DNA of 5,430 bases from a bacterium (GTDB taxonomy: Bacteria > Blakebacterota > Blakebacteria > Blakebacterales > Blakebacteraceae). The stretch covers positions 1-5,430 of the forward strand of contig JALGWK010000152.1 in NCBI GenBank assembly GCA_025774205.1. Direction: 5' to 3'. Under the pieces are notes generated by a model that ran no database searches, was not told where the DNA came from, and was given only the letters and a program-made list of their open reading frames with translations. A program made the translations under genes and the position numbers. Below, piece after piece: positions 2,922 to 5,430 of the stretch (position 1 is its first letter; every line of letters starts with the position of its first letter).

Positions 2922-3656
2922 TCAGACGATTATCTCCACCTCTGTGGTACCGATAAAAACCGATAGGCCCGATTTGATCACGAAAGCGGGGCCGGTGGCG
3001 GCTGAGGCAACTTTAACCTCACCTCCCGCGGGTACCGTGACGGCATAGTTGACCGTCTTCGCATCTTTGTCCTCACCACCTCCGAATCTCCCGAGGACTC
3101 TGACCTTATCTACCTCGCCGTTCTCATCAAAGGCGATGGCACTTGCAACTGTGCCGTTTGTGCCTGCCGCACCGGCCAGTGCCATGGTGATGGCTATTAC
3201 GTCCATCTTCACCGTGATATCCAGAATCGTATCTTCCGGCTCGGGTGGATCGATAGAGAGGAAAGCTTCATACTTCAGATCACCGCTTGGCTGCAGATTG
3301 GTCGCGATCGGTTTCCTGAATACACGGCCGGGGTGTCCCTGTCCGCCAAAGACGCTTTTGATCCTTGCCCAGGCACGTTTGACCCATCCTGTCGCCCACC
3401 ACCGTTTAAAGAGGTTCGCGTAAGTGGCATATGAGACCATTCCCACCACATCGACGGTGATGCTCTTCCCGGCAACGGTCAGGTTCGTCGCGTCACCCTG
3501 TGAATAGATCCAGACGGCAGCAGGACTGGCCAGAGCGCCTGCCTGATCTTCCGGATGAATGTATAGAAAAGGTTTCCCCGTTCCGTTGTTCACCTCGACA
3601 CTGCCCGTGTGTGGGTCAATCCGGGGCTTCCTGCGCCACTCTATAACAGTCGCCAT
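2922..3656 (-). CDS. Hypothetical protein, 244 residues, unknown function
   Basis: I do not recognise this protein. The start at 3656 is well supported: AAGGAGGAGG lies just upstream of an ATG, and the protein begins MATVIEWRRKPRID. An in-frame Met 32 codons further up (3752) has less plausible sequence and no such site. There is no signal peptide or clear membrane helix, so it is probably cytoplasmic. The N-terminal part (about 1-70) and the C-terminal part (about 140-244) alternate short hydrophobic strands with Gly, Asn, Asp and Pro turns, suggesting beta-sandwich folds. The middle (about 75-105) is a basic, Trp-rich helical stretch (NLFKRWWATGWVKRAWARIK) that could touch membrane or nucleic acid. 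The C-terminus, with VTVPAGGEVKVAS, resembles generic Ig-like or phage-structural beta repeats, but too weakly to name. It is convergent with the ABC-F gene and divergent from the membrane-protein operon, sharing its control region. Confidence 0.8.
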   Translation of the reverse strand: MATVIEWRRKPRIDPHTGSVEVNNGTGKPFLYIHPEDQAGALASPAAVWIYSQGDATNLTVAGKSITVDVVGMVSYATYANLFKRWWATGWVKRAWARIKSVFGGQGHPGRVFRKPIATNLQPSGDLKYEAFLSIDPPEPEDTILDITVKMDVIAITMALAGAAGTNGTVASAIAFDENGEVDKVRVLGRFGGGEDKDAKTVNYAVTVPAGGEVKVASAATGPAFVIKSGLSVFIGTTEVEIIV

Positions 3657-3662
3657 ATCGTA

Positions 3663-3672
3663 CCTCCTCCTT
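3663..3672 (-). promoter_or_regulatory. Strong Shine-Dalgarno of the 244-residue protein
   Basis: The minus strand reads AAGGAGGAGG, containing two overlapping GGAGG cores nine and six bases before the ATG at 3656-3654. This fixes the start there and argues that the gene is really translated rather than being a shadow of the opposite strand. Confidence 0.85.
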
Positions 3673-3764
3673 AAAAAGGGATACAGGCACTGAAGAATGG
3701 AAACAAGTGGAAGATCAGCAATGTCAGGGAGTGGCACTTCCGCAGCGCCCAACCGGGGTATCGA

Positions 3765-3795
3765 GTCAGTTATGTCGGGGGGACAGGTCAGTAAT
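3765..3795 (+). repeat. Direct repeat GTCAGT(T/A)AT upstream of the membrane-protein operon
   Basis: GTCAGTTAT at 3765-3773 recurs as GTCAGTAAT at 3787-3795. The start-to-start distance is 22 bp, about two helical turns, so both copies would face the same side of the DNA. The second copy runs into the -35 box of the predicted promoter. This arrangement suits a dimeric or tandem-binding regulator, but two nine-base copies could also arise by chance. Confidence 0.3.
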
Positions 3796-3802
3796 TGACT
3801 GA
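3788..3802. promoter_or_regulatory. Candidate operator: dyad over the -35 box
   Basis: TCAGT (3788-3792) and ACTGA (3798-3802) are perfect inverted arms around AATTG, centred at 3795. The right half covers the -35 hexamer TTGACT (3795-3800), so a bound protein would block polymerase or contact it there. No regulator gene is visible in the window. Confidence 0.35.
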
Positions 3803-3824
3803 TCCCTGGGTGTAATGATATGCT
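3795..3824 (+). promoter_or_regulatory. Sigma70-like promoter of the membrane-protein/vWA operon
   Basis: TTGACT (3795-3800, five of six matches to -35) is followed after 18 bases by TATGCT (3819-3824, four of six to -10). An extended -10 TGn lies at 3816-3818. Transcription would start near 3831, giving a leader of about 66 bases before the ATG at 3897. It is the best promoter match I see in the window. Confidence 0.5.
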
Positions 3825-3883: not shown

Positions 3884-3889
3884 AAGGAG
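3884..3889 (+). promoter_or_regulatory. Shine-Dalgarno deciding the membrane-protein start
   Basis: AAGGAG lies seven bases before the ATG at 3897. It favours that start over the in-frame TTG at 3834, which sits right beside the predicted transcription start and has no such site. Confidence 0.75.
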
Positions 3890-3896
3890 CAAAATC

Positions 3897-5159
3897 ATGC
3901 TTCCACAGGTTCAAGATTCTGCCACTCTGGACTTTAGCGGAGTCGGCGCAATCATCTTTGCCCCGCTGTTGTGGATACCCGACTGGCAGGCATTGATGAT
4001 CGATTTCGCCTGGTACGGTGGTTCCACCTTCGAGGTGATCCTCAAGTGGATCATTCTGCTTCCGCCTGTCCTGCTGCTGGTGGCGGCCATATGGGTCACC
4101 ATGATCTCCCTCTACACAGTTCCCTTCAGGTACGGACGCATAGAATTCCTGACCGCATTGGTCACTTCATGGTGGGACGCGGGCCGCTCCGTCTGGTTCT
4201 ACTGGGCAGGGATTGTCCGCCTCGCGGTCGTTCTTGTGGGCTGGATCTGGGGGATACTGAAAACGTTCGTTAAGCTCGTCGCCGCGGTTTTCAAGGGTGC
4301 TTTCAAATCGCCCCTGCTGGTACTCGACTGGACATCACGCAAATACTTCAAGCCCGGCGTGCCCTGGGTGGCATTCCTTGGACTTCTCTTCTGGGCGGTC
4401 ATAGAAGGAATAATCTTCACATTCACGCTGACGCCCACGATGATCGAAGTTCTGGCGGGCATCACCGGATACGAACCCAATCCGGCAGTGATGGCGCCCA
4501 TCCTGTTCATTTTCCTCTTCTTCCTGATCCTGGGAAGCTTCGCATGTCTCCATGCCCTGGCGGATGCGTTCCGGCAGAGGAAGACCCTGATGATATTGGA
4601 GATGATCTTCGTCGAACTCTTCGTGATGTTCTTCGAAGTCATCTTCCTCTACCGGGAACTGATCGACGCCGTCACCCCGTGGATCGCGCAGCAGACCGGC
4701 GGGCAACTGCAGCTCGGTCTGGTGGCCACTCTTCTTCTCGCCTCGTTCGGGTGGGTTGGAGTGCGCGGCATGACCTGGTTCCTCTTCGGCCGCTACGGAA
4801 CACCAGCCCTGCTGGCGGTGCTGTCCCGCCAGACGATAACCCGGGATGAGGAGGCGCCGCGGCCTGCCATGGCGGCACCGCCTCCACCCGACCTGTGGAG
4901 AGGACCGATCACGGCCTTGAAGGAAGAGACCGAGTGGTTCAAGAAAGAAGGCCGGGAGGTTTTCGCGCTGATCTCACTGCCGGTGCTCCAGCTCCTGGCG
5001 GCGGCAATGAATTTCATCACGGTGCTGATACTCGCCCGACCGATGTTCTCCTTGCCGTTCAATAGTCTTGAAGAGGTTCGCGCAGCGACTCCGAAGATGT
5101 TCAGCTCAAAGGGCGCTCCTCCGGCATCGAGCCACTCGAACGAGGGAGGAATGCGATGA
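3897..5159 (+). CDS. Polytopic inner-membrane protein of unknown family, partner of a vWA lipoprotein
   Basis: This 420-residue protein matches no family I can name. By hydrophobicity I count about seven membrane segments: roughly 49-73, 100-122, 156-179, 198-222, 230-252, 271-297 and 355-380. A further hydrophobic stretch at 14-30 and an amphipathic, Lys-containing stretch at 121-138 could lie along the membrane. The fifth segment is unusual in holding three glutamates (235, 240, 247), and segment three holds Glu170; such acidic residues in lipid often serve ion passage or helix contacts. Between segments six and seven lies a charged, proline-rich loop (about 312-350) containing APPPPD and EETEWFKKEGRE. 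The C-terminal tail (about 381-420) is hydrophilic and low in complexity. The gene overlaps the next one by ATGA, so the two products are probably made together and act in one envelope complex. Transporter, channel or scaffold roles all remain possible. Confidence 0.85.
   Translation: MLPQVQDSATLDFSGVGAIIFAPLLWIPDWQALMIDFAWYGGSTFEVILKWIILLPPVLLLVAAIWVTMISLYTVPFRYGRIEFLTALVTSWWDAGRSVWFYWAGIVRLAVVLVGWIWGILKTFVKLVAAVFKGAFKSPLLVLDWTSRKYFKPGVPWVAFLGLLFWAVIEGIIFTFTLTPTMIEVLAGITGYEPNPAVMAPILFIFLFFLILGSFACLHALADAFRQRKTLMILEMIFVELFVMFFEVIFLYRELIDAVTPWIAQQTGGQLQLGLVATLLLASFGWVGVRGMTWFLFGRYGTPALLAVLSRQTITRDEEAPRPAMAAPPPPDLWRGPITALKEETEWFKKEGREVFALISLPVLQLLAAAMNFITVLILARPMFSLPFNSLEEVRAATPKMFSSKGAPPASSHSNEGGMR
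5145..5149 (+). promoter_or_regulatory. Shine-Dalgarno of the vWA lipoprotein gene, inside the upstream gene
   Basis: GGAGG lies six bases before the ATG at 5156, within the last codons of the membrane-protein gene. Together with the ATGA stop-start overlap it points to coupled translation. Confidence 0.75.
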
Positions 5160-5430
5160 GAGTGAGGAAAAAAGTCGCCTCGCTCGTTGCGGGTGCGATA
5201 TTCGCGGTCCTGCTGGCGGCTTGCGTCAACATGGAGGACAACACCCGTCTGTCCAGGTTCACGCTTGTCGTGGGAATCGATGTCAGCGGATCGTTCAGAT
5301 CCACCGGCAATTACGAGGAAGCGATCGAATTCGCCGCCACGTATATCTACTGTCACCTGAACGGGCTGGGGGAGCTGCGGGAGCCGACAGCGCTGTTCGT
5401 CGGCCCGGTCGGCGGTTCTCAGCCGGGGGA
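5156..5430 (+). CDS. vWA-domain lipoprotein, N-terminal part, cut by window edge
   Basis: Ninety-one codons are present, open to the right edge. The start has basic residues (MRVRKK), a hydrophobic core and the lipobox LAAC, giving a lipidated Cys23, so the mature protein should be tethered to the outer face of a membrane. After only about 12 residues comes a hydrophobic strand and VGIDVSGSF. Asp42, Ser44 and Ser46 form the DxSxS start of the metal-ion-dependent adhesion site (MIDAS) of a von Willebrand factor A domain, which usually binds a protein ligand through a divalent metal. A helix (NYEEAIEFAATYIY) follows, as expected for the fold. The MIDAS Thr and second Asp would lie beyond the edge. 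The gene is coupled to the membrane protein upstream. What the domain binds is unknown, and no MoxR-type ATPase, the common partner of vWA proteins, is visible in the window. Confidence 0.85.
   Translation, partial: MRVRKKVASLVAGAIFAVLLAACVNMEDNTRLSRFTLVVGIDVSGSFRSTGNYEEAIEFAATYIYCHLNGLGELREPTALFVGPVGGSQPG

Follow-up and report, generated by a model that had tools for sequence, protein, structure and literature searches.

A polytopic membrane protein (gene A) and a vWA protein with a lipoprotein signal peptide (gene B) are encoded side by side as a conserved pair, and the two genes make up a real, conserved, and apparently undescribed envelope system. Since they remain adjacent in at least five phyla, their products very probably act as a two-part envelope machine. 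No earlier description of the pair was found in profile libraries or in the open-access literature, a search of papers on Rokubacteria included. The window, by which we mean the whole stretch of DNA that was analyzed, is an entire contig of 5,430 bases from an incomplete genome (3.09 Mb in 527 contigs, 85.9% complete, 4.8% contamination). The features that bear on the pair are given below, where A proteins encoded with a B gene are termed paired and those encoded without one are termed orphan.

3795 to 3824, plus strand: promoter-like site TTGACT-18-TATGCT with extended TG, upstream of gene A, matching the consensus at 9/12 positions
3884 to 3889, plus strand: Shine-Dalgarno sequence AAGGAG of gene A, seven bases ahead of the ATG, read from the sequence
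3897 to 5159, plus strand: gene A, polytopic membrane protein of 420 residues (AlphaFold pLDDT 83), from the open reading frame, searches, and model
4404 to 4406, plus strand: codon for E170 of A, an invariant acidic residue inside a membrane helix, found by alignment in 76/76 paired and 17/17 orphan proteins
4614 to 4637, plus strand: codons for E240 (near-invariant) and E247 (invariant in the alignment) of A, in the fifth hydrophobic segment (VELFVMFFEV)
4656 to 4667, plus strand: E254 to D257 of A, acidic pair at a predicted periplasmic helix end and candidate MIDAS docking site, from the paired/orphan comparison
4668 to 4721, plus strand: predicted periplasmic loop 258-275 of A (TPWIAQQTGG..LG), about eight residues shorter in many orphan A proteins
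5144 to 5149, plus strand: Shine-Dalgarno sequence GGGAGG of gene B, within gene A and six bases ahead of the ATG, read from the sequence
5156 to 5430, plus strand: gene B, vWA protein with a lipoprotein signal peptide, truncated by the contig end; signal from the sequence, fold from the homolog L009
5222 to 5224, plus strand: codon for Cys23 of B in the lipobox LAAC, read from the sequence
5279 to 5293, plus strand: DVSGS, the first MIDAS motif of B (D42, S44, S46), read from the sequence

The open reading frame of gene A runs from the ATG at 3897 to the TGA at 5157-5159 and translates into a product of 420 residues. The start codon of gene B (5156-5158) overlaps this stop as ATGA, a four-nucleotide overlap. 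A preliminary description of this DNA had read the overlap, the Shine-Dalgarno sequence of gene B inside gene A, and a shared promoter as signs of joint expression. The first two are confirmed, at 5156-5159 and 5144-5149, and the overlap is more than chance because it recurs in 48 of the 65 distinct homologous pairs. As for the promoter, a site is present upstream of gene A as a consensus match only, one of two promoter-like sites counted by consensus match alone in a region where shuffling predicts 0.5. Gene B is truncated after 91 visible residues because the contig ends at 5430. The remainder of the window holds an M14 zinc carboxypeptidase on the minus strand (2-768), split over two frames (430-768 and 2-400) by a frameshift or an assembly error; an ABC-F ATPase with a long charged C-terminal extension at 887-2896 (ribo_prot_ABC_F above cut-off); and, tail-to-tail with the ABC-F gene, a minus-strand open reading frame of 244-276 residues without a family match (2922-3752).

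Scanning one genome per species, 84,980 species in all, recovered 41 A loci (39-62% identity). They come from Gemmatimonadota, Rokubacteria, Acidobacteriota, Methylomirabilota, and Nitrospirota, with Manganitrophaceae among the last. In nearly all 41, a vWA gene follows A directly. Profile searches detected B in 20 of 200 genomes of Gemmatimonadota, 33 of 95 of Methylomirabilota, 8 of 198 of Nitrospirota, and 8 of 132 of a further phylum, and A in 4 of 199 Acidobacteriota genomes. The pair occurs in at least five phyla, namely Gemmatimonadota, Methylomirabilota/Rokubacteria, Nitrospirota, Acidobacteriota, and one further phylum. Paired pieces number 129, many of them covering the same locus, and contain 76 distinct paired A proteins. 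In pieces L001-L086, A lies immediately ahead of each B and stands alone only in L038, L039, and L042. Exactly one B was present in 11 of 12 genomes picked for carrying A. The preliminary description had proposed looking for side-by-side conservation in other genomes; it is found across these phyla but not in the window's own phylum of four genomes, where A is present in the window's genome only and absent from the three others. The distance matrices of A and B are correlated (rho 0.84), as shared descent alone would also produce. Retention of the pair across several phyla, mostly in single copy per genome, points to a likely basic role in the envelope.

In the tree, gene A of the window groups inside Gemmatimonadota, though the genome is assigned elsewhere; either a contig misplaced in this bin or a transfer of the pair may account for this. 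When the ABC-F gene of the window was used to test bin membership, no clear ortholog was found in any of the phylum's three other genomes.

Examination of 134 proteins encoded around 36 loci revealed no constant third gene beside the pair. DUF819, BON, Mpl, lytic transglycosylase, TypA, alpha/beta hydrolase, and CstA recur locally only. Some neighbors have an envelope look, namely the lytic transglycosylase, Mpl, and BON-domain proteins of Rokubacteria and YceG in two Gemmatimonadota. In bacteria, MoxR ATPases are generally found together with vWA cofactors (PMC3893208). A MoxR/Bat reading of the recurring partner was nonetheless rejected, in keeping with the earlier statement that the partner is not MoxR: no MoxR family reaches three members among the 134 neighbors, and the left side of the window pair, the only side visible, is free of MoxR. 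At several Nitrospirota loci, the pair lies amid a conserved gene set (L127, 7330-13119; L129; L130; partly L132) whose members we take, from the look of their sequences, to be a hydroxymethylpyrimidine-kinase-like protein, a multi-helix membrane protein resembling haem-copper oxidases, and an alpha/beta hydrolase.

The product of gene B begins with a signal peptide and the lipobox LAAC (residues 20-23), from which about 11 residues lead to FTLVVGIDVSGSF, the first MIDAS motif. Of the MIDAS, just the DxSGS part lies within the window, and the Thr and second Asp were read from relatives, which at full length have about 250-270 residues and a single vWA domain. In L009 numbering, D41, S43, S45, T124, and D154 are invariant or nearly so in B homologs, the D, S, S, T, and D each reaching at least 97% across 75 B sequences. 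The AlphaFold model of the homolog L009 (37 sequences; pLDDT 86.7, pTM 0.82) has 83 matches in the PDB at E <= 0.001, with vWA domains in the top rows and 8xt5 the best at 6.4e-6. With VIA-align, the vWA domain of RGLG1 (6k88) was matched at Z 14.5 with an rmsd of 3.5 Å over 193 residues, many other vWA domains falling within 1-2 Z units. The model clearly predicts a vWA fold with a complete MIDAS. By profile, no usable match was found in Pfam, NCBIfam, PHROG, or PADLOC; Pfam VWA_2 was sub-threshold (E 0.045, 2 of 37 members), and HicB, YxiJ, and DUF7351 were discarded as families for B, their matches being at chance level.

Beyond a single N-terminal hydrophobic segment, B is a soluble fold through to its C terminus. 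A lipobox-like Cys is present in 37 of 65 distinct homologs and absent from the scanned stretch of the other 28, mostly from Rokubacteria, and thus a lipid anchor does not characterize B as a whole; the Rokubacteria proteins likely carry an ordinary signal peptide. The vWA module had been described as following the lipid anchor with almost no spacer, which holds for B of the window, with Cys23 and DVSGS so close together. Four Rokubacteria/Methylomirabilota genomes have a further B copy without A nearby (L141:1449-3073, L142:8866-10517, L143, and L144). In L141-L143, this lone B directly follows another secreted vWA-like gene (IIFLDFSGSI...TDIF...SDMIED) that has no Pfam family, a second and different vWA pairing. 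A comparison of B copies with and without A nearby, covering only three sequences, found no conserved position lost.

Alignment-mean hydropathy gave seven hydrophobic segments in A (51-68, 105-123, 159-173, 201-217, 237-251, about 280-288, and 364-375), although the second is doubtful as a membrane crossing. The preliminary description had likewise counted seven and could place the protein in no family. The profile libraries agree, returning no characterized family and no usable match in Pfam, NCBIfam, PHROGs, or PADLOC. The best Pfam entry was DUF2304, partial and below cut-off (E 0.0019), and Ca_hom_mod appeared in one member only (E 0.0029). A role in anti-phage defence was dropped, PADLOC having returned no match. 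A profile search against PDB sequences yielded nothing usable. The AlphaFold model of A is helical, with a very long helix at 81-150 (pLDDT 83, pTM 0.53) and only moderate confidence at 240-280. Structure prediction on the single proteins, also proposed earlier, thus gave a clear vWA model for B and, for A, no convincing solved relative (Foldseek best E 2.2; VIA-align best Z 6.7, to long-helix proteins), an absent match not being proof of a new fold. ABC-exporter helices and long helical bundles were discarded as fold relatives of A, the matches being weak.

Loops 184-198 and 258-275 of A contain on average 0.5 and 0.7 Lys or Arg residues, versus 2.9 for 224-232 and 6.1 for 298-350, and we place the first two loops outside because they are poor in these residues while the latter two are rich. 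From this we infer that residues 254-275 lie on the outer side. The orientation of the first two segments is ambiguous, since 76-97 and 119-155 are both rich in Lys and Arg. The invariant residues in the hydrophobic segments include E170, E247, and R290, and E240 is found in 75 of 76 paired A proteins. Such invariant charges in membrane helices suggest ion or solute movement. From these features, we take conduction of ions or solutes, or coupling to ions, as the likeliest activity of A, which is the weakest step of our best explanation; an enzyme or scaffold is possible instead.

Many Rokubacteria genomes carry a second A copy without B, often between genes for a lytic transglycosylase and Mpl. 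At this transglycosylase-A-(B)-Mpl locus, B is present in L017, L031, and L034 and absent in L038, L039, and L042, a natural loss series. We compared the 76 paired A proteins with 17 orphans. D257 is present in every paired protein but in only two orphans (L150 and L153), E254 in every paired protein versus 7 of 17 orphans, and G274 in 75 of 76 versus 4 of 17. Depending on the line, the orphans have E, A, S, T, R, or H in place of D257; ten have Glu, which could still bind metal. Many have also lost eight residues from loop 258-275. In genomes that carry A without any B (G049, G300, G302, and G319), E254 is replaced by Gly or another residue and D257 by Glu. The alignment establishes a link between the presence of D257 and E254 in A and the presence of B. 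Five of 14 lost positions fall within 250-278, a modest enrichment in a stretch picked post hoc (hypergeometric p = 0.03), and I173, K342, and E344, elsewhere in A, are also altered in orphans. The orphans belong mostly to one Rokubacteria branch and represent few independent loss events, the maximum-likelihood tree needing at least two changes of orphan state.

Our best explanation, which we hold tentatively and just short of an even chance, is that A and B are subunits of a single inner-membrane/periplasm complex and would be in physical contact. B would be exported, in most lineages as a lipoprotein, whereas many Rokubacteria apparently use an ordinary signal peptide. It folds as one vWA domain whose metal site is complete. 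The MIDAS metal of B would be completed by an acidic side chain of A, in all likelihood D257 helped by E254, and so form a metal bridge. The candidate site is the periplasmic end of the fifth hydrophobic segment, with B docking on the 254-277 loop; at present, D257/E254 as a docking site is a lead drawn from the alignment. In its favor are the link of both residues to the presence of B and their retention in a far paired clade that is less similar to the window than the orphans are. Against it weigh the modest clustering of lost positions, the few independent losses, the two orphans with D257, the Glu replacements, the changes elsewhere in A, the moderate model confidence at 240-280, and the B copies that lack a nearby A. 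Docked in this manner, B may hold or gate A, and would assemble or regulate an ion- or solute-conducting or ion-coupled protein. The paired/orphan contrast provides specific residues to mutate, so that what a bacterial vWA protein does outside the cytoplasm can be tested directly; prokaryotic vWA proteins are poorly understood (PMC3893208). The carriers are uncultured bacteria of soil, groundwater, and sediment, in which neither gene is family-named in the libraries searched.

The preliminary description, whose main claim holds, had instead supposed that the vWA domain senses or recruits a ligand next to the membrane protein. In its present form, that idea keeps the A-B complex but turns the MIDAS of B toward an external ligand such as a peptidoglycan-linked protein, an outer-membrane protein, or a substrate, with A a sensor or relay inward and the 254-277 loop touching a non-MIDAS surface of B. 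The pairing and the fold evidence for B speak for it as well, some of the neighbors are envelope-like (lytic transglycosylase, Mpl, BON, and YceG), and lone B copies retain the MIDAS. Yet no recurrent ligand candidate is found around the 36 loci, and D257 and E254 suit a metal partner. The evidence favors A itself as the MIDAS partner of B, and we regard an external ligand as one possibility, and a rather unlikely one.

We also considered that A might be an enzyme or a scaffold in the membrane, serving cell-wall or lipid metabolism, with B a maturation or assembly factor and no channel involved. The flanking of second A copies in Rokubacteria by lytic transglycosylase and Mpl would fit, as would the vWA proteins of the NorD and ViaA class (chains 9qh8 and 9qh6), which take part in assembling membrane enzymes (PMC3893208). 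However, wall-related neighbors occur at this one Rokubacteria locus only, the neighbors at other loci being unrelated, and an AAA+ ATPase, the partner of cytoplasmic NorD/ViaA, does not recur near the pair, so that we consider this reading unlikely. Highly improbable is co-transcription of A and B without contact, in which the D257/E254 pattern would have arisen as a duplicated A diverged in the usual way once selection on it relaxed: although the orphans come mainly from one branch and differ at further sites, the pairing, overlap, and correlated divergence persist across phyla and varied genome contexts, and a more diverged paired clade (32% identity to the window, with orphans at 39%) retains D257, E254, and G274.

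Among known systems, the closest solved folds to B are vWA domains of the RGLG/copine type (6k88 and 8xt5), which are intracellular eukaryotic proteins at 17% identity and share the fold only, other vWA domains being nearly equal. BatA and BatB are envelope-located bacterial vWA proteins with a MIDAS, in which the membrane helices are on the vWA protein itself and a MoxR ATPase stands alongside. B differs in having an N-terminal signal only, with no flanking membrane helices, and in that MoxR is not recurrent. NorD and ViaA resemble B in the vWA fold (9qh8, Z 13.2) and in a link to membrane proteins; they are cytoplasmic, have a large N-terminal part, and work with an AAA+ ATPase. RavA-ViaA is one such vWA/AAA+ ATPase pair (PMC3893208).

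The vWA domain of alpha2delta binds an Asp in the first extracellular loop of CaV channels, the kind of contact that we propose between B and D257/E254 of A. In CaV2.2, the D122A substitution leaves very weak co-precipitation with alpha2delta and abolishes the increase in current (PMC6231325). The A-B pair resembles this system in having an extracytoplasmic vWA protein, lipid-anchored and with its MIDAS intact, beside a polytopic membrane protein with a candidate outer acidic residue. It differs in that alpha2delta carries Cache domains and is GPI-anchored, whereas B is a Cache-less protein of about 255 residues with one vWA domain, and A has no detectable sequence relation to channels. It is quite improbable, in our estimate, that A represents a new bacterial family of ion channels or ion-coupled proteins with B as its extracytoplasmic vWA subunit, MIDAS-docked on D257/E254, in an independently arisen counterpart of CaV-alpha2delta. 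Taken as an analogy, the resemblance of the A-B pair to CaV-alpha2delta is one of mechanism, not of kinship.
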